DNA of 40,248 bases from contig JAFMMO010000008.1 of NCBI GenBank assembly GCA_017859655.1, positions 1 to 40,248 on the forward strand, written 5' to 3'. This stretch comes from Pseudomonadota bacterium. Lineage in GTDB: Bacteria > Planctomycetota > UBA8108 > UBA1146. Of the stretch, positions 7,216 to 33,361 are shown one piece after another (the stretch's first letter is position 1; every line of letters starts with the position of its first letter). A model generated the notes under the pieces. That model searched no databases. It had not been told where the DNA came from and saw only the letters and a program-made list of their open reading frames with translations. A program made the position numbers and the translations under genes.

Positions 7216-7471
7216 TGACAGGTCGTTCAACACCTCCCTTTCGGGTGCTAGCTTCCGTAACAGGAGCAATGAGCAGCTGAGGTGAAGCACCTATTCGCGC
7301 CTCGCTGATCTCACCGTCGGTCACCGGAAAGACCGACTCCTCGAAAACTCACAAGGGCACCCGCCCTCCGGGCCGCCGGGGATCCCTCCGGCCGCATCCC
7401 CGATGCGGCGCGGCGGAGTCCCCGCAGGCGTTGCCGGCGGCGTGGCGTGCCGAGTTCGCATGGGAGGACAC

Positions 7472-9616
7472 ATGCGCTCATCCACGATCTTCCGTGGATC
7501 CTCCGTCGCCGGCCTCCTGCTGGTCGTCGGCGTCTCGCTCAGCGGCTGCGGCTCGTCCGGAGGAGGATCGAGCCCCCCCGCCGCCCCTGCCGACCTCAGC
7601 TACCCCTCACCGACGACCGCCCACCTGGGCGTCCCCCTCGAGCCCCTTCAGCCGACCGTGGCGGGAGCGGTCACCGAGTGGTCGGTGGACCCCGGCCTGC
7701 CGGATGGTCTGCTCCTCGACCCGGAGTCCGGGTGGATCGAGGGGACCCCGACGGCGCTGCGGCCCCTGGCGCCCTACACGATCGCGGCCCGCAACGCCGC
7801 CGGGGATGGTGTGGAGTTCGTCCTCGAGCTCGAGGTCGTGCCGGTCCCGATCCCTGCGGTCTCCTGGGAGACGGGGAGCTCGATCCTCGGCGAGGCGGTC
7901 GGGGGCGGAGCCCTGATCGTCCTCCTCTCGGAGCCGACGATCCACGAGGTCATCGTCCCCTTCACCACATCGGGGAGCGCCACTCCCGGCGCGGACCTCC
8001 TCATCGATCCGGGCCCCTTGGTCGTCCCCGCCGGAGAGACGATGGCCTCCCTCCTCCTCGGCGCCATCGATGATGACATCGCGGAGGGAGTCGAGGAGCT
8101 GGAGGTCATCCTCGGAGATCCGATCGGGGGGGTGCTCGGCGCGACCGTGGTCCACGTGGTGACGATCGAGGACGACGAGGGAGTCCCGGTCGTCGAGTTC
8201 ACACAGGACTCCCTCGCCGTGCCCGAGAGCGCGGGCTCCATCGAGATCCCCGTCGGGATCGACCCGGTCTCCGCGTTCGACACGACCGTGACGATCGAGG
8301 TCGACCCCGCCGTCTCCTCCGCGAGCGAAGGACTCGACTTCGGCCTCGCCGCGGCGGAGGTCACGATCCCCGCGGGCGCCTCGACGGCAACGCTCACCCT
8401 GCTCCTCCACGACGATGCCGACTACGAGCTCGAGGAGTTGGCGGGGCTCGAGCTGGTCGGGGCGAGCGGCGCCGAGGTCGGACCGGGCTCCACGCTCCTC
8501 ATCACGATCGAGGATGACGACCCGCTGCCGACCGCCTCCCTCTCTCCGCCCACCGCGAGCCTGACCGAGATCTCGGATCCGCTCGCCCTCACGGTCAGCC
8601 TCAGCGCGGCCTCGAACTTCGAGGTGACGCTCCTCGTGGAGACAAGCGGCACCGCGACGGCGGACGACTTCAGCGTCTCCCCGACCCTCCTCGTCCTCCC
8701 CCCCGGGTCCCTCACCGGGCTGATCGAGGTCACGCCGCTCATGGATGTGATCGAGGAGCCGGACGAGACGATCGTGATCACCCTCGTGGCCGCGGGCGGC
8801 GTCGAGGTCGGCCCCGCCGCCACCTCGGAGATCACCCTGCATCACACGCCCCCCCCTCCGGGCGGGCTCACCTACTCCGATGCGGACGCGTTCCTCGCCC
8901 TTCAGCAGCCGATGGTCCCCCTCGTCCCCACCCTCGCGGTGGGAGCCGCCGACGCCTGGACGGTCGATCCGCCCCTTCCGGCCGGGCTCCTCCTCGATCC
9001 GATGACCGGCTGGATCACGGGGACACCCACCGTCGAGGCGGACCCCACCGATCACACGATCACCGCCACGAACGCCCTGGGCTCGACCACCGCGGTGGTG
9101 CGGATCCGGGTGGGGATGGCCTTCCTCCTCTCCGGAGGGGAGGTCACCTCATCCCTCGGGGCGACGAGCTTCGTCATCGACATCACGCTCACCGAGAGCC
9201 CGAGCGGCCCGGGAGCCGGGTCCTTCCACGACATTCAGGGCTGGTCTCTGGGGATCGAGATCGACCCTTCGGTCGCGACCGTCCTCGGGGCGGTCCAGAG
9301 TCCGGATGTCCTGGGGATCAACGGCGGGAGCCCGGTGGACTACCACCAGACGAGCCTGCTCCCCACGGGGGTCACCTCCGCTTCGGTGGTCAACTTCGTC
9401 GGAGCCCACACCCTCGTCTGCGATGTCGAGACCGGGCTTCTCGAGATCACCTGCCAGGTCACCGCCGGCTTCGCCGCGGCGAACCCCTCGGGCGCGACCG
9501 TCGAGTTCCCGATCGTCGACACTCTGGGGAGTCCCCCGCTCGATGCCCTCCTGGTGATCGACACGGCCGCGGTCTGGCCCGAGCTGGAGCCGTGCACCGT
9601 GAACTTCCTTCCCTAG
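7472..9616 (+). CDS. Surface lipoprotein with putative Ig (He_PIG-like) and Calx-beta domains and a cohesin-like C-terminal module
   Basis: SD GGGAGGA before ATG 7472; lipobox LSGCGSS; Calx-beta endings VTIEDDEGVPVVEF, LLITIEDDDPLPTASLSP; He_PIG-like LPDGLLLDPESGWIEGTPT and LPAGLLLDPMTGWITGTPT. Confidence 0.82.
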   Translation: MRSSTIFRGSSVAGLLLVVGVSLSGCGSSGGGSSPPAAPADLSYPSPTTAHLGVPLEPLQPTVAGAVTEWSVDPGLPDGLLLDPESGWIEGTPTALRPLAPYTIAARNAAGDGVEFVLELEVVPVPIPAVSWETGSSILGEAVGGGALIVLLSEPTIHEVIVPFTTSGSATPGADLLIDPGPLVVPAGETMASLLLGAIDDDIAEGVEELEVILGDPIGGVLGATVVHVVTIEDDEGVPVVEFTQDSLAVPESAGSIEIPVGIDPVSAFDTTVTIEVDPAVSSASEGLDFGLAAAEVTIPAGASTATLTLLLHDDADYELEELAGLELVGASGAEVGPGSTLLITIEDDDPLPTASLSPPTASLTEISDPLALTVSLSAASNFEVTLLVETSGTATADDFSVSPTLLVLPPGSLTGLIEVTPLMDVIEEPDETIVITLVAAGGVEVGPAATSEITLHHTPPPPGGLTYSDADAFLALQQPMVPLVPTLAVGAADAWTVDPPLPAGLLLDPMTGWITGTPTVEADPTDHTITATNALGSTTAVVRIRVGMAFLLSGGEVTSSLGATSFVIDITLTESPSGPGAGSFHDIQGWSLGIEIDPSVATVLGAVQSPDVLGINGGSPVDYHQTSLLPTGVTSASVVNFVGAHTLVCDVETGLLEITCQVTAGFAAANPSGATVEFPIVDTLGSPPLDALLVIDTAAVWPELEPCTVNFLP

Positions 9617-9680: not shown

Positions 9681-10047
9681 CCCCTTCCTCTCGTGAAGAT
9701 CGCTTCACGGCCTCCGGATCGGCGAGGGGCGCATAAAGGAGCCGTTCACACTTCATCCCCAAACTGGTACCTTCCCCGTGGGTCCGGACGTTGGGGGGTT
9801 CGCTCGGCTCGCGGCACTCCCCACCATCCCCATTTCAGGGCATTTCCTCCTGACGGAACTCGACTCCTCGGTCGGAACCGTGCAGGGCGTCCGGCTCGAT
9901 GTTCCCATCCCAGGGGTCCGTGCCCGGTGGCACGGTCCCGACCCCGCTCCCTCGTTGAGGCGGCGAAAGCCCCGGCGGACAGCCTCCGCCCGGGCTCCTG
10001 CCGGCTCGGCGAGCGCGGAGAAAACCGTCCCCTTCTACGGAGGCACC

Positions 10048-12225
10048 ATGCTCAACACTTCGTGGACCGCTCCGGTGAGGCTCCTCACCATCACCCTGGC
10101 TCTCTTCTCCGCGCTCTTCCTCGCGGGCTGCAACGACATCTTCGATGACGACCGCAACGAGCCGTCGATCCCGGTCGCGCCCTCCGGGCTGAGCTACCCC
10201 TCCCCGGTGGAGGTCTACCAGGGGCTCGCGATGACCACCCTCGTGCCGACCGTCAGCGGAGGCATCGACACCTGGAGCATCGCGCCCGCCCTCCCGGACG
10301 GGATCAACTTCAACACCGCCAACGGGCGCATCAGCGGGACCCCCACCACGGTGACCCCGAGCGCCAGCTACACGATCACGGCGGAGAACACCCTCGGCAG
10401 CGACTCGTTCAACCTGATCCTCGCGGTGATCCCCGTCCCCGTGCCGGATGTGAACTTCGAAACCACCAGCTCGACCGTCGAGGAGAACGGCGTGGGCAGC
10501 GAGCTCGTCGTCACCCTCTCGGAGACGACCCTCGTCGATGTGGTCATCCCGTTCTCGGTGGGCGGAACCGCCACGGAAGGCGATGACTTCACGATCACCG
10601 CCTCCCCGATCACGATCCCCGCGGGCAGCAGCTCGGCCCTGATCAGCGTGAACATGTCCGACGACGCGACCGCGGAGGGACTCGAGACCGTGGTCGTGAC
10701 CCTCGATCCGCCGACGAACGGAAGCCTTGGAGCGGACGTCGAGCACGTCGTGACGATCGTCGACGATGAGGGAGTCCCCACCGTGGTGTTCACCGCGCCC
10801 ACCTCCTCCGCCTCGGAGGCGGCCGGGACTGTGACGATCGGGATCTCCCTGGTCCCCGCGGCATCGAACGAGGTGGTCGTCACCGTGCAGCTCGGAACGA
10901 TGGGGGCCACGGCCACCGACGGGGAAGACTTCGACGTTCCCAGCGCGACGGTCACCATCCCGGCGGGCAGCATCTCCGGAAACCTCGCCGTCACCCTGAT
11001 CGATGACACCGAGTTCGAGGGAGACGAGACGATCGTCGTCGAGATCGCCGGTGCCACCGGGGCCGACATCGGCAACGAGACCACCCACACCCACACGATC
11101 ATCGACGACGACCCGGCACCCACCGCGGGGATCTCCCCCACGGCGGCGAACCTGATGGAGACCGACGCCCCGCTCACCCTCACCGTCGGCCTCAACACGG
11201 TCTCCTCCGTGGACACCGTGATCCCGTTCACGACCGGGGGCAGCGCGACGGTGATCGACGACTTCACCCTCTCCCCCGCCTCCCCCCTCACGATCCCGGC
11301 CGGCTCGCTCACCGCGAGCATCGTCCTCACGCCGGTGGATGACGGAGCGGACGAGGGGAACGAGACGGTGACGATCACCCTGCAGTCGAGCCCGACCGTG
11401 ACGATCGGCACCGGCACCGCCACGATCACCCTGGAGGATCCGCCCTCCCCGCCCGTCGGCCTGACCTACTCCGACGACGATGCGTTCCTCCCCATCGGCC
11501 AGCCGATGACCCCGCTCACCCCCTCCCTCGCCGCGGGCAGCGCGGACAGCTTCTCCGTGAACCCGGCGCTCCCGGCGGGTCTCTCGATGGACCCGGTCAC
11601 CGGCGTCATCGCGGGGACCGCAACCGCGGAGCAGGGACCGCAGGGCTACACGATCACGGCGACGAACGGCCTCGGCTCGACCGACGTGACGATCCAGATC
11701 CGGGTCGGCCTCGTCTTCACCCTCTCGGGGGACAGCCAGACCGTGAGCTTTGACCCCGCGAATGGTCTCGCGGCGCCCTTCAGCGTCCGGGCCAACCTGC
11801 TGGAGACCCCGAGCGGAATCGGCGCCCCCGGCTTCAGCGAGGTCGCGGGCTGGTCGTTCGGGATGGCGTTCGACGACACGATCGTCACCGTGATCAACGC
11901 GGTCCGGGGCGCGGATGCCGCCACCGCGAACAACGGCAACCCTCCGGCCTTCGAGACGATCAACCTCGTGACCGGCGGCGTGACGATGGGAGTCGTGGTC
12001 GACCTCTTCGGGGTCCAGACCCTGCTCGCCTCGACCACCCAGGAGCTCCTCGTCGTCAACTGTGAGGCAGTCCCGGCCTTCCTGCAGGCGAACCCTGCGG
12101 GGCTCACCGTGGAGTTCCCGTTCTCCGACAACCTCGGGAGCCCGGCGGTGGAGTCGGTCATCGTCGTCGGCGGCGCCTCGGTCCTGCCGAAGTTCGCCTC
12201 CGCGACGGTCGACTTCACGCCCTAG
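10048..12225 (+). CDS. Surface lipoprotein, paralog of 7472..9616 (He_PIG-like + Calx-beta + cohesin-like C-terminus)
   Basis: ATG 10048 preceded by ACGGAGG; lipobox FLAGCND; VTIVDDEGVPTVVF, HTIIDDDPAPTAGISP; LPAGLSMDPVTGVIAGTAT; same domain order as the upstream gene. Confidence 0.82.
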   Translation: MLNTSWTAPVRLLTITLALFSALFLAGCNDIFDDDRNEPSIPVAPSGLSYPSPVEVYQGLAMTTLVPTVSGGIDTWSIAPALPDGINFNTANGRISGTPTTVTPSASYTITAENTLGSDSFNLILAVIPVPVPDVNFETTSSTVEENGVGSELVVTLSETTLVDVVIPFSVGGTATEGDDFTITASPITIPAGSSSALISVNMSDDATAEGLETVVVTLDPPTNGSLGADVEHVVTIVDDEGVPTVVFTAPTSSASEAAGTVTIGISLVPAASNEVVVTVQLGTMGATATDGEDFDVPSATVTIPAGSISGNLAVTLIDDTEFEGDETIVVEIAGATGADIGNETTHTHTIIDDDPAPTAGISPTAANLMETDAPLTLTVGLNTVSSVDTVIPFTTGGSATVIDDFTLSPASPLTIPAGSLTASIVLTPVDDGADEGNETVTITLQSSPTVTIGTGTATITLEDPPSPPVGLTYSDDDAFLPIGQPMTPLTPSLAAGSADSFSVNPALPAGLSMDPVTGVIAGTATAEQGPQGYTITATNGLGSTDVTIQIRVGLVFTLSGDSQTVSFDPANGLAAPFSVRANLLETPSGIGAPGFSEVAGWSFGMAFDDTIVTVINAVRGADAATANNGNPPAFETINLVTGGVTMGVVVDLFGVQTLLASTTQELLVVNCEAVPAFLQANPAGLTVEFPFSDNLGSPAVESVIVVGGASVLPKFASATVDFTP

Positions 12226-13853: not shown

Positions 13854-15749
13854 ATGAGATGGAGTCTGTGTTCTCATTTGGAATCGAAGCTGATCGGCGC
13901 CCTCGTGGTGTCGCTGATCGTGGGGGCTTCGACCGTGGTTTCGGCTCAGGAATATCGCTCGATCGATGGCTCAGGAAACAACGTGGCCGATGGAAGCATC
14001 GGCAGCGTCGGCATGATGCTGATGCGGGAGGTCAGTGAGGCGTACGAGGACGGCGTGCAGATGCCGGGGGGCATGACGCGACCGGGCGCCCGCCTGATCA
14101 GCAACACGATCTGCGACCAGACGACCTCACTGCCGAACTCGGCAGACGCCAGCGACTTCCTCTGGCAGTGGGGACAGTTCCTCGATCACGACATCGATCT
14201 CTCGCCCTCCCACGACTTCGGAACCCCGGGGGAGCAGCTCCCCATCCCGGTCCCGGCGGGGGATCCTCATTTCGACCCGTTCGGCACCGGCACCGAGACG
14301 ATCGGATTCATGCGATCGCTCTTCGAGCCGGGCTCGAGCCCCCGTCAGCAGATCAACATGATCACAACCTGGATCGATGCCTCGAACGTCTACGGATCCG
14401 ATGTGACCCGGGCCCTCGCCCTCCGAACCCTGGACGGCACGGGGCGCCTCCGCACGAGCGCGGGCAACCTGCTCCCCTTCAACGAGCAGGGACTCCCCAA
14501 CGCCGCTCCTCCGGGGCCTCCTCCGGGAGTCTTCTTCCTCGCGGGAGATGAGCGGTGCAACGAGCAGGTGGGGCTGATCTCGATGCACACGCTCTTCATG
14601 AGAGAGCACAACCGCCTCGCGACCCAGATCGCCGCCGCGACTCCGGGGTTGAGCGGGGACGAGATCTACCTGCGCGCCCGTCGCCTGGTCGGAGCCGAGA
14701 TGCAGCGGATCACCTTCGAGGAGTTCCTTCCGCTGCTGCTCGGACCGGGGGCGATTCCCCCCTACGCCGGCTACGACCCGACCGTTGACGGCAGCATCCG
14801 GAACCTGTTCTCCACGGCCTGCTACCGCGTGGGACATACGATGCTCTCGCCCACGCTCCTGCGCCTCGGACCGGGCGGTCAGGAGATCCCGGAGGGGAAC
14901 CTGCCGCTCGCCGCGGCCTTCTTCGCCCCGAACCTCGTCGTCGACGACGGGGGGATCGAGCCGATCCTCCGGGGGCTCGCCCTGCAGCGGGCCCAGTCGA
15001 TCGACACCAAGATCATCGGCTCGGTCCGGAACTTCCTCTTCGGGCCGCCGGGTGCGGGGGGCTTCGACCTCGCCTCCCTGAACATCCAGCGGGGACGCGA
15101 CCACGGCCTGCCGTCCTACGCGGATGCCAGAGTCCAGCTCGGTCTCGCGCCGGTGACGACCTGGTCCGACATCACGAGCGACCCCGAGGTCCAGACCGCG
15201 CTCGCGGCCGCCTACCCGACGGTGGGAGAGGTGGACCTGTGGATCGGGGGTCTGGCGGAGGATCATGTCGCCGGCGCGCTCGTGGGCGAGCTGTTCCACA
15301 GCGTCCTGAGCATGCAGTTCCGAGCGCTTCGGGATGGTGACCGGTTCTGGTACGAGAACGACCTCGAGCCGGAAGAGCTGGCGCTCGTCAACGACTCGAC
15401 CCTGAGCCGCGTAATCCTGCGTAACACCTCGATCAACACCCTGCCCGCGGATGTGTTCCGCGTCCCAAGCCCCGAGTTCGTGCGGGGAGAGTGCGACGGG
15501 GACGGTCTCAGCACCCTCGCGGATGCGATCGTGACCCTCGACTTCCTCTTCAACAACGGCCCGGAGATGCCCTGCATGAACGCCTGCGACGTGGACGGAA
15601 GCGGGACGGTGACGATCGGTGATCCGATCTACACCCTCGTGTACCTCTTCTCGACCGGACCGACGCCCTCGGCTCCGTTCCCGGATTGCGGATCGACCGG
15701 TCAGGGCGCGGGAGAGCTCCCGTGCTACGAGTCGACCAACTGCCCCTGA
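13854..15749 (+). CDS. Secreted animal-type haem peroxidase with C-terminal type I dockerin-like domain
   Basis: Signal peptide LIGALVVSLIVGASTVVSAQ; peroxidase motifs FLWQWGQFLDHDIDLS, WIDASNVYGSD, LFMREHNRLA, RVGHTMLSPT, LNIQRGRDHGLPSYADAR; dockerin-like CDGDGLSTLADAIVTLDFLFNNG...CDVDGSGTVTIGDPIYTLVYLFSTG. Confidence 0.93.
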   Translation: MRWSLCSHLESKLIGALVVSLIVGASTVVSAQEYRSIDGSGNNVADGSIGSVGMMLMREVSEAYEDGVQMPGGMTRPGARLISNTICDQTTSLPNSADASDFLWQWGQFLDHDIDLSPSHDFGTPGEQLPIPVPAGDPHFDPFGTGTETIGFMRSLFEPGSSPRQQINMITTWIDASNVYGSDVTRALALRTLDGTGRLRTSAGNLLPFNEQGLPNAAPPGPPPGVFFLAGDERCNEQVGLISMHTLFMREHNRLATQIAAATPGLSGDEIYLRARRLVGAEMQRITFEEFLPLLLGPGAIPPYAGYDPTVDGSIRNLFSTACYRVGHTMLSPTLLRLGPGGQEIPEGNLPLAAAFFAPNLVVDDGGIEPILRGLALQRAQSIDTKIIGSVRNFLFGPPGAGGFDLASLNIQRGRDHGLPSYADARVQLGLAPVTTWSDITSDPEVQTALAAAYPTVGEVDLWIGGLAEDHVAGALVGELFHSVLSMQFRALRDGDRFWYENDLEPEELALVNDSTLSRVILRNTSINTLPADVFRVPSPEFVRGECDGDGLSTLADAIVTLDFLFNNGPEMPCMNACDVDGSGTVTIGDPIYTLVYLFSTGPTPSAPFPDCGSTGQGAGELPCYESTNCP

Positions 15750-22359: not shown

Positions 22360-24912
22360 TCAGCACCCCCCGAGCGTGCAACCGAGCAGCGAAGCCTCGC
22401 TGTCGCACGCCGGATAGGGCGCGGGGGGCGCCGGCCCCCCGGCATAGAGGTGATTCAGGAGCAGGATCGCGTCGGAGAGCTGAAGCGCCGCATCCCCGTC
22501 GAAGTCCGCGGCATCTTCACAGGGAAGCGCCCCACCGCCGAAGAGTCCCATCAGGAGGGTGATGGGGTCCCCGAGATCGAGGTCCCCCGAAGCATCGACA
22601 TCGCCCCGGAGGAAGGCGACCGGTCGAGGGCGCGCCACGACGAGGAGCGCGTTCGCGTATCGACCCGAGGTCACACCCGGGGTTGAGTCGAGGGCGGCGA
22701 CCCGCAGGAGGACGCGACCATCCGGGCCCGGGTCCACCTCGACGAAGCGGGCGATCCAGCCATCCCGGTTCTCGGCCGGGAGGCGCGTGCTCGGATCATC
22801 GGAGTCGAGGAAGAGAAGTCCTCCCGAGGCTGGGTCCGGGTTCCCGCTGCCGAGGCTGCTGTCGTTGCGGAAGGAGTCCGCGCCCTCGATCGTCACGACG
22901 GATCCCTCGGTCCAGCCGCCATCGTTCCGATCCCCGAAGAACACGATCTCATGGTCTCGTGCGGGGTCGAGGCCGTTGAGCTCGAGGACGAGGTCCTGTC
23001 CGGATGCGGCCGGCGCCGGGGGTCCGATCGACCCGTGGGCATCGACGAGCAGCCCGAAGGCGAGCGCGGCATCGGTCTCGGGAAGCGGCGAGCCGCTCCG
23101 CGTGGTTCCCTGCTCGCCGCCGTCGTAGCTGCCCCCCATCACCGTGAGGGTGATCCCGGTCGGGGATCCGTCCTCGCGACTGACGAGCTCACCGGAAGAG
23201 GGCAGCCCGGAGCCGCCGTTCGGGGAGGTGAACCGGGTGAGGTTCGCGGTCGACTGTCCCGGCACCCAGGCGAGGTCGTTCACCACGATGAGCACATCCT
23301 CCTCGGCGGGCGCGAAGCGCGCGGTGACCGCGCGATCTCCGAAGAGGACCAGCTCGACGGTGGGGTCGGCGCCCGAGGCATCGCCCGTCCACTCGATGAA
23401 GGTCCAGCCGGGAGCTGGGACCGCGTGCAGGATGACGCTCTCGCCGTCCCCGTGGAGCGGGCGCCCGTTCGAGCGCGTGATCCGGCCGGCCCCCTCGACC
23501 TCGGTGACCAGGGTGTGAGTGCGGGTCCCCTTCGAGATGACGAAGCGATCGGTGATCGCTCCATCCACCCGGAGGTTCTCGAGCCAGAGCAGGTCCCCGT
23601 CGAACCGGAGCAGACAGGAGCCGTGCTCGAACTCCTCGCGCACCACGAGGGGATGGCCGCCGGTGCCACCGATGGTGCGGCCGCCGTGACCGGCGACGAC
23701 GCAGACTCCCCCCACCCCCGGGGGGCCGGGGGACTTCTCGTACGCGCCCGCGCCCGCGGGGTCGCCATCCCCCGCGTCGATGACGCGTCCATCGGCGATC
23801 AGGGTGGGGAGATCCGGGGTCGCGTAGTCGGGGATGGAGCCATACCCGTGCGCGCCGTCGATGAGGAAGGTGCGCTCGTAGCCATGAGAGTGCCCGGAGA
23901 TGACCAGATCGACCCCTCCGGCCTCCAGGAGCGGGAGCAGGTACTCGCGGGCGAGCACGAGCCGCCCCCCGGAGTCGGTGCCATCGTTCGAGTCGTGGGT
24001 CCCCTTCGAGTAGGGCGGGTGGTGGAAGAGCGCCACGACCCAGTCGGCGAGGGTGCCCTGCAGGTCCGCGGTCACCCAGTCGAGCATGGTGGAGGGGGGG
24101 ACGAGATCGCCGGTCGCGGTGTCGATCACGATGAAGTGGACATTGTGGTGATCGAAGGAGTAGTGCCCCTCGTTCCCGGAGGCGACACCTCCCATCCCCC
24201 CGCCCGCGGGGAGGGTGAACGCCTCGAACCAGGGACCGGCCTGGAAGGCCGGGGTCAGGCTGTCCGCATCGTGGTTCCCGATCGACGGCCACAGGCAGGA
24301 GCGGGAGAGGAGCGAGGCGTAGGCCCCGAAGACCCGCGCGGTGAACTCGCCATCCGTTCCGGTCTCATAGGCGATGTCTCCGGCGTGAAGGATGAGCTCG
24401 GGAGGATCGTCGCCCCCCAGGTGGCTGAGGAGGGAGTCCCGCACCGCGCGCTGGGGTGCTTCCCCGGTCCCGGAGTCGGCGAGCACCCAGACGGTGAAGG
24501 GGTCCGGCTCCCCCGGCGGGGCCGCGGTGCGGAAGCGATGCGCAGCGGTCCCCCCGCCGAGGACCCCATCGACGGTGGTCCCGAAGCGATAGTGATGGGA
24601 GCACGAGGGCACCAGCCCATCGAGGATCACCTCGTGGTCGCGCGCGGTCGGGGAGGAAGGAGGGATGACGGTCGTCCCGAGCGTTGTCTCCGTGTAGACC
24701 CCGGACTCGATGCCCCACTCGACGAAGGGTGCGCCGCCGGAGCCGGCGTCGGTGCGGAAGCGAATGATGACGCGGGTGTCGGAGACCTGCTGGAGGTAGG
24801 CGTCGCGAACGACGACGGGCGCCGTTCCCTGGGCGGAGGCGGAGGCCGCCGTGAGGAGCAGTCCGGCGATGCCGATCAGCCCGGCCCGAAGGAGGGAGGT
24901 CTCCTTCCTCAC
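22360..24912 (-). CDS. Secreted purple-acid-phosphatase-like metallophosphoesterase with InlB_B-type repeat and C-terminal dockerin-like domain
   Basis: Signal peptide; Fn3-like N-terminus (VVVRDAYLQQVSDTRVIIRFRT); LADSGTG, HAGDIAYETG, SIGNHDAD, LFHHPPYS, ISGHSHGYERT; InlB_B-like VEGAGRITRSNGRPLHGDGESVILHAVPAPGWTFIEWTGDASGADP...VTARF; dockerin-like LRGDVDASGDLDLGDPITLLMGLFGGG...ADFDGDAALQLSDAILLLNHLYAGG. Confidence 0.9.
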   Translation of the reverse strand: MRKETSLLRAGLIGIAGLLLTAASASAQGTAPVVVRDAYLQQVSDTRVIIRFRTDAGSGGAPFVEWGIESGVYTETTLGTTVIPPSSPTARDHEVILDGLVPSCSHHYRFGTTVDGVLGGGTAAHRFRTAAPPGEPDPFTVWVLADSGTGEAPQRAVRDSLLSHLGGDDPPELILHAGDIAYETGTDGEFTARVFGAYASLLSRSCLWPSIGNHDADSLTPAFQAGPWFEAFTLPAGGGMGGVASGNEGHYSFDHHNVHFIVIDTATGDLVPPSTMLDWVTADLQGTLADWVVALFHHPPYSKGTHDSNDGTDSGGRLVLAREYLLPLLEAGGVDLVISGHSHGYERTFLIDGAHGYGSIPDYATPDLPTLIADGRVIDAGDGDPAGAGAYEKSPGPPGVGGVCVVAGHGGRTIGGTGGHPLVVREEFEHGSCLLRFDGDLLWLENLRVDGAITDRFVISKGTRTHTLVTEVEGAGRITRSNGRPLHGDGESVILHAVPAPGWTFIEWTGDASGADPTVELVLFGDRAVTARFAPAEEDVLIVVNDLAWVPGQSTANLTRFTSPNGGSGLPSSGELVSREDGSPTGITLTVMGGSYDGGEQGTTRSGSPLPETDAALAFGLLVDAHGSIGPPAPAASGQDLVLELNGLDPARDHEIVFFGDRNDGGWTEGSVVTIEGADSFRNDSSLGSGNPDPASGGLLFLDSDDPSTRLPAENRDGWIARFVEVDPGPDGRVLLRVAALDSTPGVTSGRYANALLVVARPRPVAFLRGDVDASGDLDLGDPITLLMGLFGGGALPCEDAADFDGDAALQLSDAILLLNHLYAGGPAPPAPYPACDSEASLLGCTLGGC

Positions 24913-28328: not shown

Positions 28329-28471
28329 AGTTCTGGCTCGATAGTAACGACAAACGACTCGAGAAGATTATCGGCGCTCCCGATCGGGGGCGCGCGAGGT
28401 GGTTCCTCACTCACGCCGGAGTCCGGAGTGAAGGGGGGACGCCTGTCGATCTATGAAAGCGAGGCCCGCTG

Positions 28472-31400
28472 GTGTCCGTACACAGCATCTCCCTGTCCTC
28501 CCCTCTCTCCGGGCGTCGCGCGCGACGGCTCGGGGCGCTGAGCGTCTGCCTCCTCCTCCTCGGCGCCGTCGGCGCCTCCTCGATCCGGGCAGAGGAGAAC
28601 GACAACACCGCCTGCACCCAGATCGCCGCGAGCGAGCACTTCGCGGTCGAGCTCATCGGGACGGAGTACCTCCCCGACGAGACGAGCGTCTGGAACTACG
28701 CGGTGACCTGGGACGGCATCGGGCCGGTGCTTGACCGCTTCATGCTGAAGCTCTGTCACGATGCGGATGTCGTCGAGGCGAGCCCGGCGGGGAGCTGGGT
28801 CGGCTACAGCGGCGAGATGGGACTCTACGGGATCAAGTGGAACACGAGCGGGATCACCTTCGAGCCCGGGATCCCGGTGCTCTTCAGCGTCACCCTCGAC
28901 GATGCCTACCTGATGTCGAGGACGAAGGTCTCCCTCAAGGCGGGCGACTACCCGCAGCAGCTTCACATCTGCGGGCCGAGCAAGTACTGCACCGAGGTCG
29001 AGTTCCCCCCGCAGGACCTGATCTGCACCCTCGACCCCTGCACGTGCGAGACCTTCCTCAGCTGGACCAACATCGGCTACTACGACCTGATCAACATCCG
29101 GGTGGACGGGGTCCTCGTGCAGACCCTCCCCGGGAGCGCGACCTCGACCACGCTCACCGTCGGCACCGGTGCCCACCTCATCGAGGTGACCGGGGTCGAG
29201 GACGAGGACTACGACGGGGTGTACGACCACTGCGGCGAGTACAGCCCCCACTCGGGAGGCCGCTTCAGCGAGGATGACCCTGACGAGCCGGACTACGAGG
29301 ACGATGAGGACGATGAGGACGACTACGAGGAGGGATGCGAGGATGACGAGGAGACCGATCCCGCCACCTGCATCGTCGTCTGCCCGGAGCTGACCCCAGC
29401 CTCCCCCTCCGCCCTCAGCTGCACCCCCGACCCGCTCACCTGCGCGGTCGACATCCAGTGGACGAACGAGCGTGTCTACACCGAGCTCGTCCTCTCCGTC
29501 GACGGCGTCCCCTACGCGACCCTCCCCGGGGATGCCACCTCCTTCACCCTGACGGAGGCGCTGGTCGGGTACCACTCCGTCTGCCTCAACGGAACCGACG
29601 ACTGCGGGCTCCCGTTCCCCGAGGTCTGCTGCAGCTTCTCCTGCGACGACCCGATCCCGCCCCCGGTCAACGATCTCCAGTGCCTGATCATCGACCCGTG
29701 CGACTGCTCCTTCTCCGTCTCCTGGACGAACGGAGCCGCGGACTACGACGTGATCCGGATCTTCGTCGACGGAGAGCTGATCACGACGCTGCCGGGCAAC
29801 GCCCGAAACGCGATCGTCTCCCCGACCGGTGGCCTCGACCCGATCCTCCTCCCCGGCGCGACCTCCAGCATCTGCATCGTGCCCGAGCGCAACGGCTACA
29901 CCGGGGACCAGACCTGCTGCTCCCTCACCTGCGAGGAGATCCCGAACGGCGCCCCGATGGCGCTGAGCTGCGATGCGCCGCCCGCCCCGGAGTGCACCGC
30001 GGACATCTACTGGCTGAACAGCGGAGACTACTCGACCATCGAGATCCTCCTCGACGGGATGCTCTACGCGACCCTGCCCGGCACCAGCCAGTCCGCCAGC
30101 GTGGCGATCCCCGAGCTCGGACCCCATGAGATCTGCGTCCGCGCGACCACGATCTGCGACGAGCTGCTCCCCGATGTCTGCTGCACGGTCGAGTGCATCG
30201 GGCCGCCGGACCCGATCAACACGCTGATGTGCACCCTCGATGACATCTGCACCTGCGAGTTCTCCCTCACCTGGATGAACGGGAACACGGACTACGACAC
30301 GATCCAGGTCCTCATCGATGGGGTCCTGCACGAGGAGCTCCCCGGCACCGCCACCAGCCTGCCCCTGAGCCTCTTCACCGAGGGCCCCGCGAACATCTGC
30401 CTGGTCCCGGAGCGCTACGGCCTCCTCGGTCAGGCGACCTGCTGCGTCGTCGACTGCCCGGGAATCCCGAACGACGCGGTCGAGGGGCTGACCTGCACGC
30501 CGGACCCCCTGACCTGCGTCTTCACCGCGAGCTGGAGCAACCCGGCCCCCTACACCCTGATCGAGGTGTCCCTCGACGGAGCGGTGATCGCGACCCTCCC
30601 CGGTGATGCGACCAGCTACGACTTCATGTCCCCGCTCACGGGTCCGCACCAGATCTGCGTGACCGCGACCACCATCTGCGGCGAGCTCTCCGCCCCCGCC
30701 TGCTGCGAGATCGACTGCACGATCCCGCCGCCCGACCCGGTCCTCGATCTCGTGTGCGGCGCGGTCGATCCGTGCACCTGCACGCTGGACCTCAGCTGGA
30801 CCAACGCCGAGTCGAACTACGATTCGATCCAGATCCTCATCGACGGCGTGCTCGACCAGACCATCGCCGGCTCGGCGACGACCGCGGCGATCGCGCTGCC
30901 GAGTCCCGACGACTACTCGCTCTGCGTCATCCCGATCCGCAACGGCGTGTCCGGAACCGCGAGCTGCTGCTCGGCGACCTGCCCGGTCACCGACCCGATC
31001 CCGCCGACCGTCCTCGAGTGCATCGTCGATGCCGTCTCCTGCAACGCGACGATCAACTGGATGAACAACTCGCTCTACTCCCAGGTGGAGGTGCGGCTGA
31101 ACGGCATCGTCGACCAGGTCGTCCCGGGCGCGAACGGGTCCGCGACGGTCCTGCTCACCTACCCGGGTGCGAACACCCTCTCGATCGTCGCCACCACCGT
31201 CTGCGGCGTGGTGACCGAGGAGGTCTCCTGCATCGTGTCCTGCCCGCAGCTCGAGCCCGACCCGGTCGGAAACCTCACCTGCACCCTGGCCGATGTCTGC
31301 ACCTGCACCTACGACCTGAGCTGGACGAACGAGGGCCCCTGGGCGTACGACTCCATCCGCGTCAACATCGACGGCGTGCTCGTCCAGACCCTTCCGGGCA

Positions 31401-33361
31401 GCGCGACCATGACCTCGCTGTCGGTGGGGGCGCCGGGTGCCTACGAGATCTGCCTGATCCCGGTGGTGAACGCGGTGGACGGCGATCCCGCCTGCTGCGG
31501 CGTGGACTGCCCGGATGTCCCGCTCCTGGCTCCGAACGGCATCACCGCCACGGTCGGCGACCACCCGACCTGCGCGACCGCCCTCGAGTGGCAGAACAAC
31601 TCCGACTACTCCCAGATCGTCGTCTCCATCGACGGGGCGCCCGTGGCGACCCTGCCCGGCACCTCGACCACCACCACGGTCAACCTGCCCGGCCCGGGGC
31701 TGCGGACGATCTGCCTCACCGCGACGACGATCTGCGGGGTCGAGCTGAGCCCGACCTGCATCGACGCGGAGTGCTTCTTCCCGCCCACGGCTCCGACCGC
31801 CGTCACCTGCACCCTCACCGATGTCTGCATGTGCCTCGGCACCGTCACCTGGATGAACACCGAGGCGGACTATGACGCGATCGAGGTCACCGTCGACGGG
31901 GTCCTCATCGCGACGCTCCCGGGGAACGCCGACAACGCCACCGTCATGCTGCCGCAGCCGGGGACCTCGAGCGTCTGCGTCACGGCGATCCGGAACGGGC
32001 TGAGCTCGGATGCGGCCTGCTGCTCGCTCGAGTGCGCGGGTCCGCCGCCGGTGACCGGTCCGGCCGCCGTGACCTGCTCGACGGGTCCCTGGCCGGGCTG
32101 CGAGACCACGGTCTCCTGGACGAACACCAGCCTCTACTCCCAGATCGTGGTGACCCTCGGCGGGGTCGTCATCGCGACCCTCCCCGGCGACGCGACGATG
32201 ACGACGGTCGCCCTCTCCACTCCCGGACTGCAGGAGATCTGCCTGATCGCGACGACGATCTGCGGGGATGAGGCGGCTCCGAGCTGCTGCCCGGCGGAGT
32301 GCATCTTCCCGCCCGATCCGATCGGGGGTCTGAGCTGCCTGATCGACTCCGACCCCTGCTCCGGCTCCATCTCGTGGATGAACGGGAACACCGACTACGA
32401 CTCCATCGAGGTCACTCTCGACGGGGCGGCGTACGCGACCCTCCCGGGTGGTGCCACCACCATCGAGTACGGGACGCTGGAGCCCGGACCTCACACCTTC
32501 TGCTTCACCGCGGTGCGGGCCGGCCTCGCCTCCGAGGAGCTCTGCTGCACCATCGACTGCCCGCTCCCGCCGCCGGCTCCGACCGGCGTCCAGTGCACGA
32601 TCGACGACAGCTGCCTCTGTCTCGGGACGCTGAGCTGGATGAACGCCGCCGGTGACTACGACGCGATCGAGATCCGCTCGGACGGGATCCTGATCGACAC
32701 CCTCCCCGGGTCGGCGACGAGCACGAGCGTGTCGATCGAGGTCGGGGCGAAGAACCTCTGCGTGACCGCGGTGCGGAACGCCCTCTCCTCGGCGGACGCC
32801 TGCTGCCTCCTCGAGTGCCCCGGGCCGCCGGCGCCCCAGGCCCCCTCCGGCCTGAGCTGCACGATCGTGAATGCGGACAGCTGCACCGTCGAGGTGACCT
32901 GGTTCAACCCCCAGACCTACTCCGGGCTCGAGGTCCTCGTGAACGGCGTCTCCTACGCGACCCTCGCCGGGGATGCGACCTCCGCGACGGTGAACCTGAT
33001 GGACATGAGCGCGGACATCTGCGTGGTGGGCACGACCTCCTGCGGCGATGCCACCGACCCGGCCTGCTGCTCGGTCCAGTGCTTCAACCCGTTCAGGCGG
33101 GGTGACTGCAACCTCGACGGGTTCATCGACATCGCGGACGGGATCTTCGTGGTGCGGTTCCTCTTCAACGGCTTCGAGCCGTCGAGCTGCCTCGATGCCT
33201 GCAACTTCAACGACGACGCGCTCATCGACATCGCGGACACCATCTACGCCATGAGCTATATCTTCCTGGGAGGCACGCCGCCCCCCGCGCCCCTCACCGA
33301 GTGCGGGGTCGACGCCGTCAATCCGATCGGCTGCGACAACTTCCCCGAATGCGACCTATAG
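28472..33361 (+). CDS. Giant secreted Cys-rich repeat protein (~1630 aa; 15 Fn3/Ig-sized modules) with C-terminal dockerin-like domain
   Basis: Signal-peptide-like LGALSVCLLLLGAVGASSIRAE; 15 modules with core W-x-N-...-YD-x-I-x-V-x-DG-x-x-x-x-TLPG-x-AT and ...CC-x-x-x-C; dockerin-like RRGDCNLDGFIDIADGIFVVRFLFNGFEPSSCLDACNFNDDALIDIADTIYAMSYIFLGG. Confidence 0.88.
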   Translation: MSVHSISLSSPLSGRRARRLGALSVCLLLLGAVGASSIRAEENDNTACTQIAASEHFAVELIGTEYLPDETSVWNYAVTWDGIGPVLDRFMLKLCHDADVVEASPAGSWVGYSGEMGLYGIKWNTSGITFEPGIPVLFSVTLDDAYLMSRTKVSLKAGDYPQQLHICGPSKYCTEVEFPPQDLICTLDPCTCETFLSWTNIGYYDLINIRVDGVLVQTLPGSATSTTLTVGTGAHLIEVTGVEDEDYDGVYDHCGEYSPHSGGRFSEDDPDEPDYEDDEDDEDDYEEGCEDDEETDPATCIVVCPELTPASPSALSCTPDPLTCAVDIQWTNERVYTELVLSVDGVPYATLPGDATSFTLTEALVGYHSVCLNGTDDCGLPFPEVCCSFSCDDPIPPPVNDLQCLIIDPCDCSFSVSWTNGAADYDVIRIFVDGELITTLPGNARNAIVSPTGGLDPILLPGATSSICIVPERNGYTGDQTCCSLTCEEIPNGAPMALSCDAPPAPECTADIYWLNSGDYSTIEILLDGMLYATLPGTSQSASVAIPELGPHEICVRATTICDELLPDVCCTVECIGPPDPINTLMCTLDDICTCEFSLTWMNGNTDYDTIQVLIDGVLHEELPGTATSLPLSLFTEGPANICLVPERYGLLGQATCCVVDCPGIPNDAVEGLTCTPDPLTCVFTASWSNPAPYTLIEVSLDGAVIATLPGDATSYDFMSPLTGPHQICVTATTICGELSAPACCEIDCTIPPPDPVLDLVCGAVDPCTCTLDLSWTNAESNYDSIQILIDGVLDQTIAGSATTAAIALPSPDDYSLCVIPIRNGVSGTASCCSATCPVTDPIPPTVLECIVDAVSCNATINWMNNSLYSQVEVRLNGIVDQVVPGANGSATVLLTYPGANTLSIVATTVCGVVTEEVSCIVSCPQLEPDPVGNLTCTLADVCTCTYDLSWTNEGPWAYDSIRVNIDGVLVQTLPGSATMTSLSVGAPGAYEICLIPVVNAVDGDPACCGVDCPDVPLLAPNGITATVGDHPTCATALEWQNNSDYSQIVVSIDGAPVATLPGTSTTTTVNLPGPGLRTICLTATTICGVELSPTCIDAECFFPPTAPTAVTCTLTDVCMCLGTVTWMNTEADYDAIEVTVDGVLIATLPGNADNATVMLPQPGTSSVCVTAIRNGLSSDAACCSLECAGPPPVTGPAAVTCSTGPWPGCETTVSWTNTSLYSQIVVTLGGVVIATLPGDATMTTVALSTPGLQEICLIATTICGDEAAPSCCPAECIFPPDPIGGLSCLIDSDPCSGSISWMNGNTDYDSIEVTLDGAAYATLPGGATTIEYGTLEPGPHTFCFTAVRAGLASEELCCTIDCPLPPPAPTGVQCTIDDSCLCLGTLSWMNAAGDYDAIEIRSDGILIDTLPGSATSTSVSIEVGAKNLCVTAVRNALSSADACCLLECPGPPAPQAPSGLSCTIVNADSCTVEVTWFNPQTYSGLEVLVNGVSYATLAGDATSATVNLMDMSADICVVGTTSCGDATDPACCSVQCFNPFRRGDCNLDGFIDIADGIFVVRFLFNGFEPSSCLDACNFNDDALIDIADTIYAMSYIFLGGTPPPAPLTECGVDAVNPIGCDNFPECDL
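29015..33085 (+). repeat. Array of 15 protein-level repeats (about 85-90 codons each) in alternating A/B types
   Basis: Modules aligned by eye; pattern A-B x6 then A-A-B (see findings). Confidence 0.8.

Follow-up and report, generated by a model that had tools for sequence, protein, structure and literature searches.

The open reading frame at positions 28472-33361 (+) of the 40,248-nucleotide stretch analysed here (the window) is predicted to encode a very long secreted rod of 15 fibronectin type III (Fn3)-like beads of two alternating types, A and B. Cysteine covariation among related modules strongly indicates a disulfide staple between each A module and the B module directly after it, A(n)-B(n+1), a bond that we infer from this covariation. 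The frame is open throughout, begins with GTG and translates into 1629 residues: a signal peptide, an N-terminal domain of ~140 residues, the 15 modules and a dockerin-like tail (Table 1). The source organism is a marine-type planctomycete with a genome (G000) of ~3.5 Mb. An Fn3 rod as such is an already known kind of protein. The best explanation of the whole, which we consider quite probable, is a jointed rod of stapled A=B pairs that serves as a dockerin-docked stalk.

Table 1. Features of the gene for the 1629-residue protein, with nucleotide positions in the window.
Feature	Position	Strand	Remarks
Signal peptide, aa 1-40	28472..28591	+	RRARR n-region, hydrophobic core, ...SIRA|EE; translation inspected
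N-terminal domain, aa 41-177	28592..29002	+	genus-restricted; relative in G001:C272, 39% identity
Module 1, type A, A-specific Cys190	29003..29398	+	acidic insert nt 29195-29359, in the FG loop by alignment
Module 2, type B, B-specific Cys378	29399..29662	+	
Module 3, type A, A-specific Cys410	29663..29950	+	
Module 4, type B, B-specific Cys562	29951..30211	+	
Module 5, type A, A-specific Cys593	30212..30472	+	AF2 model, predicted Fn3 fold
Module 6, type B, B-specific Cys736 at FG-loop tip	30473..30736	+	AF2 model
Module 7, type A, A-specific Cys768	30737..30997	+	third module of the AF2 model
Module 8, type B, B-specific Cys911	30998..31261	+	C4 and C5 both lost
Module 9, type A, A-specific Cys943	31262..31528	+	
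Module 10, type B, B-specific Cys1088	31529..31789	+	C1 and C6 both lost
Module 11, type A, A-specific Cys1119	31790..32056	+	carries the partial Pfam PA-IIL match
Module 12, type B, B-specific Cys1264	32057..32314	+	
Module 13, type A by sequence	32315..32575	+	no B after; sole A without A-specific Cys
Module 14, type A, A-specific Cys1381	32576..32839	+	
Module 15, type B, B-specific Cys1524	32840..33091	+	
C-terminal dockerin-like tail and stop codon	33092..33361	+	two D/N-x-N-x-D...D..D calcium-loop repeats

The modules were delimited by their W-x-N anchor, which gives 15 modules at a spacing of 86-96 residues downstream of the signal peptide (28472..28591 in Table 1) and the N-terminal domain. 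The one exception is module 1, which reaches 132 residues because of an acidic insert of 55 residues (aa 242-296, nt 29195-29359) containing 30 Asp/Glu and two extra cysteines; this insert possibly binds calcium. The computed order is A B A B A B A B A B A B A A B, just as the first-pass annotation had read it, with strict alternation in modules 1-12 and then A-A-B. Mean identity among the 15 modules is higher within the types (A-A 42%, B-B 39%) than between them (A-B 34%), a gap reached by none of 10,000 label shuffles. The two types also separate in a module phylogeny, where one branch splits A from B with moderate support (66/90) and none of 500 shuffles did as well. The same annotation had counted about five cysteines per module, which is too few: there are 5-7 in a module, usually 7, and 111 in the whole protein.

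An AF2 model was made for modules 5-7 (A-B-A) from a 21-row alignment. It has seven strands per module (pLDDT 94.8, pTM 0.73), and its 50 best PDB matches in Foldseek are nearly all tandem Fn3 proteins, with E-values down to 4.7e-12 and fibronectin 12-14 at the top. Pfam fn3 does not occur among the hits to the 1629-residue protein up to E 10. Since the best fold matches are tandem Fn3 proteins, the modules are Fn3 domains as modelled, with membership by fold only, and so divergent that the Pfam fn3 model misses them; the disulfide-rich Fn3/Ig-like rod envisaged at first reading is borne out to this extent. Known tandem Fn3 arrays (fibronectin 12-14, tenascin, titin A-band FnIII, contactins) share the predicted fold and the end-to-end arrangement. 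In contrast to them, the rod has modules that are ~8-18% identical to theirs and escape the Pfam fn3 profile, two strictly alternating module types and, by prediction, three intramodule disulfides plus a complementary inter-module cysteine pair.

The sole Pfam match above cut-off is PF07472 (PA-IIL) on module 11, at 43.4 bits against a cut-off of 21, and in profile comparison RSC3288 and PA-IIL chains match weakly (E 0.045-0.6). These could be taken to mean that each module is a calcium-dependent fucose-binding lectin domain of the PA-IIL (LecB) type and the protein a multivalent lectin. However, the match covers positions 9-70 of the 107 in the profile, a similarity that spans strands B to F, and leaves the C-terminal part without a match; in LecB it is this part that carries most of the calcium and sugar ligands. 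Moreover, LecB is absent from the 50 best PDB fold matches. A lectin is extremely improbable, and PA-IIL identity was rejected on the partial profile match together with the Fn3 fold. The earlier statement that the repeat has no named family was thus nearly right: PF07472 does match, yet only in part, and the fold contradicts it. Searches with the 1629-residue protein gave nothing useful in NCBIfam or among PDB sequences (one spurious acidic match in the latter), PHROGs returned one weak match (E 0.027) to a family of unknown function, and a search for phage relatives found none.

Six cysteines are common to both module types: C1 (strand A), C2 (start of B), C4 (strand F), the adjacent C5 and C6 (CC, strand G) and C7 (end of G). 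A seventh is particular to the type. In A it lies in a D-x-C of the AB turn, two residues before C2; in B it belongs to a T-T-x-C-G that forms the tip of the FG loop. Loci of this planctomycete class supplied 491 distinct modules, over which the intramodule phi is 0.94 for C2-C7, 0.89 for C4-C5 and 0.75 for C1-C6. Losses are coupled in the same way. C4 and C5 are both absent from modules 1 and 8 of the 1629-residue protein, C1 and C6 from module 10, and C2 and C7 were lost together in the relatives L066 and L068. Judging from the strand limits of the AF2 model, C4 and C5 (residues 63 and 77) would face one another on the FG hairpin, whose turn is near residue 70. Three probable intramodule pairs, C1-C6, C2-C7 and C4-C5, are defined by these coupled losses. 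Whether the cysteines pair within or between modules had been raised as a question at the outset, and covariation answers it with six within and one between.

The type-specific cysteines were compared over 327 distinct adjacent module pairs. Strict motifs were adopted because loose cysteine definitions gave apparent exceptions, which on inspection were Cys-poor modules with a strand-F or C6 cysteine, loop insertions and contig-end truncation. Under the strict motifs, the A-cysteine of module n and the B-cysteine of module n+1 are both present in 95 pairs and both missing in 231; the single discordant pair is L209, where an inserted loop shifts a D-P-C that is still there. When both modules are C7-positive, the counts are 44 both, 20 neither and 0 discordant. 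The opposite order, B-cysteine in n and A-cysteine in n+1, is looser (21 both, 24 discordant), and not one of the 491 modules carries both type-specific cysteines. Clustering divides the 95-96 staple pairs into 12 groups at 40% identity and into 36 at 50%, so that they are not copies of one sequence, though related by descent; because the sampled species are related, the 95 pairs correspond to far fewer independent events. In the 21-row A-B alignment the only invariant cysteines are the two of the staple, C13 and C156, and they are retained where other cysteines have been lost. Unpartnered staple cysteines, when inspected, were explained by contig or locus ends, a misread C1 (L211) or an A module upstream that the profile had overlooked (L215). 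The one real case is L196, a B-like module that has the cysteine and no module upstream, and sits behind an apparent FG-GAP propeller.

Within the 1629-residue protein, the only A module that is not followed by a B is module 13, and it is also the only one that lacks the A-specific cysteine. Its orthologue in the sister species (module 10 of L031) likewise precedes an A and lacks the cysteine. Both nest beside the Cys-bearing module 5 in a tree of 80 modules, a position that points to loss of the cysteine after the partner had gone. At two A-to-B junctions of L050, from the sister genome, modules group with A and B and both cysteines are absent at each. The AF2 strand limits put the A-specific cysteine between strands 2-11 and 16-23 and the B-specific one between 144-154 and 163-169. 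In an Fn3 domain the FG loop is found at the upstream end and the AB turn at the downstream one. Geometrically, therefore, a bond A(n)-B(n+1) would be natural and a bond B(n)-A(n+1) would not.

Some of this association is simply the common descent of the A and B types. The 80-module tree separates all 34 A modules from 33 of the 37 B modules, with weak support for the deep A/B branches, so the labels are inherited together, and L045 (described below) alternates two types without any staple cysteine. It could be argued from this that the cysteines are free or merely historical, the types having diverged once, each with a different odd cysteine. Such an account is unlikely to suffice, as the staple cysteines are the most conserved of the pair and are kept when others go, exclude each other within a module, and vanish together, both in module 13 without its B partner and at both A-B junctions of L050. 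Pairing between chains, by which the odd cysteines of A and B would cross-link rods sideways into a sheet or bundle, fits the odd cysteine count that leaves one free per module, and secreted Cys-rich coats of this sort exist. We regard it as very unlikely, however, since the rule follows the order within the chain (A directly before B), is obeyed by proteins with a single A-B pair, and concerns an AB turn that, by general Fn3 topology and the AF2 strand limits, faces the FG loop of the next module. The staple between neighbours in one chain is the reading we prefer. A literature search with most subscription journals outside its scope found no paper on interdomain disulfides with Fn3, and a wider one of the same scope found no tandem Fn3 rod among the best 25 of its 190 matches. 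No description of the A-then-B pairing rule was found there, and this silence is weak evidence of novelty.

The history of the A-B pair can be followed in small relatives of ~450-500 residues, which consist of a signal, a cohesin-like domain, one A-B pair and a dockerin-like tail. Each of the 16 family genomes encodes such a protein, as does one genome from another family of the same taxonomic order. For one of them, L051, AF2 and Foldseek give a Clostridium cohesin-Fn3 construct as the best match and solved cohesins at TM 0.77-0.85; it is the only relative for which the cohesin fold was confirmed. That construct is the C. perfringens GH84C cohesin-Fn3 module (2w1n), where an Fn3 likewise follows the cohesin; scaffoldin cohesins are also among the closest known systems. 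Unlike 2w1n, the relatives carry a putatively stapled Fn3 pair and combine cohesin and dockerin in one chain, whereas the 1629-residue protein itself has no detectable cohesin domain. The latter differs from its sister-species orthologue by whole A-B units, after module 10. Taken with the single pair in 16/16 family genomes, this agrees with the early proposal of an A+B di-module as the unit of amplification; as judged from these sequences, the A-B pair is ancestral, older than the 1629-residue gene, and was amplified in this genus. The loss or gain suspected near modules 13-14 is likewise recovered, as a unit from which the B has gone. Module 13 falls together with module 5 (84/90), and the irregularity is shared with the sister species.

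A profile search in other genomes, suggested in the first-pass annotation, found the A-B profile in 20 of 296 genomes of the phylum, 18 of the 20 in this class. Matches outside the order are, as far as inspected, Cys-poor relatives or partial matches. Named records with A-B are planctomycete metagenome-assembled genomes, several of them marine by isolate name and a few labelled otherwise, e.g., Bacillota. A separate observation concerns L045 (G019:C172, 2-11122, -), a frame of at least 3707 residues with an N-terminal parallel-beta-helix-like region and 40 Cys-poor Fn3-like modules. These alternate between two types without staple cysteines (59% identity at the same parity, 32% at different parity). 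The staple is therefore not the cause of alternation, and di-module growth is possible without it.

The dockerin proposed for the C-terminus corresponds to a real, though divergent, dockerin-like tail. The tail (aa 1541-1629, 89 residues) contains the duplicated D/N-x-N-x-D-...-D-x-x-D repeats of dockerin calcium loops, and that of L051 has two helices in an AF2 model of modest confidence. Pfam Dockerin_1 gives no match to the window protein and 23.0 bits to the tail of the orthologue, against a cut-off of 22.9. A profile of the tail has 143 matches in genome G000, ~135 of them strong, and in 299 of 331 hits across the analysed loci the tail lies at most 5 residues from the C-terminus. The small relatives also served to build a cohesin-like profile, which has 58 matches in the same genome, where none of the cohesin-like domains passes the Pfam Cohesin cut-off. 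The 58 cohesin-like matches and ~135 tails suggest a large cohesin-dockerin network that standard annotation misses. In the window, copies of the tail are located at 33092-33358(+), 15471-15746(+) and 22375-22620(-), the latter two on an animal-haem-peroxidase protein (13854-15749) and a metallophosphatase (22360-24912, -), and cohesin-like matches at 9227-9607(+) and 11839-12216(+) lie at the C-terminal ends of ORFs 7403-9616 and 9778-12225.

Non-cellulosomal cohesin-dockerin proteins have been proposed to make up a 'planctosome' in freshwater planctomycetes (PMC6461901). The two systems are alike in being non-cellulosomal and in having an adaptor with both dockerin and cohesin; the likeness is one of domain content. 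The planctosome differs in its HYR, LTD and P-domains and peptidases, and the words fibronectin and cysteine do not appear in the text that describes it.

In the mechanism we propose, the protein would be exported by its signal peptide and the 15 modules would then each adopt the Fn3 sandwich, braced by as many as three intramodule disulfides: C1-C6 between strands A and G, C2-C7 between the start of B and the end of G, and C4-C5 between F and G. The AB-turn cysteine of an A module would face the following module and the FG-tip cysteine of a B module the preceding one, and the two would form the A(n)-B(n+1) disulfide. This would give seven locked and presumably rigid A=B pairs (modules 1-2, 3-4, 5-6, 7-8, 9-10, 11-12 and 14-15) and a lone A, module 13, with free, non-covalent B-A hinges in between. 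The ancestral stapled pair, single in the cohesin-A-B-dockerin proteins, would have been amplified into a long stalk in this genus. The dockerin-like tail probably plugs this stalk into a cohesin-bearing surface partner, a putative docking that would present the N-terminal domain at a distance; both the stalk function and the docking are reasoned guesses. More tentatively, and with rather less than even confidence, a cysteine 'key and keyhole' rule may hold throughout the lineage, by which pairing of Fn3 modules occurs solely in the order A then B and never within a module, and rods of locked segments and free hinges act as spacers in a large non-cellulosomal cohesin-dockerin surface network. 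If the proposed bonds hold, the full disulfide wiring of a large repeat protein, including the bond between neighbours, would be readable from natural sequence variation, and evolution would have arrived at a rule for making rods whose joints are locked and free in turn. A further point of interest is what looks like an extensive cohesin-dockerin system, so far uncharacterised, in planctomycetes that have not been cultured.

The N-terminal domain (aa 41-177) has no Pfam match, and its single other occurrence within the class is L230, from the sister-species genome (39% identity). It was considered as a divergent cohesin and rejected, the relationship to the cohesin-like domain being undetectable (hhalign E 0.14). 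Elsewhere in the genome, one open frame of 541 residues (G000:C67:22816-24210 (-)) combines VKOR and thioredoxin-fold domains; it likely encodes an oxidative-folding enzyme for exported proteins, which would suit the folding of the exported rod. Opposite the repeat gene, the antisense strand has an open frame of 1347 residues (28451-32494 (-)), which seems to be a side effect of high GC and regular codons and not a gene.
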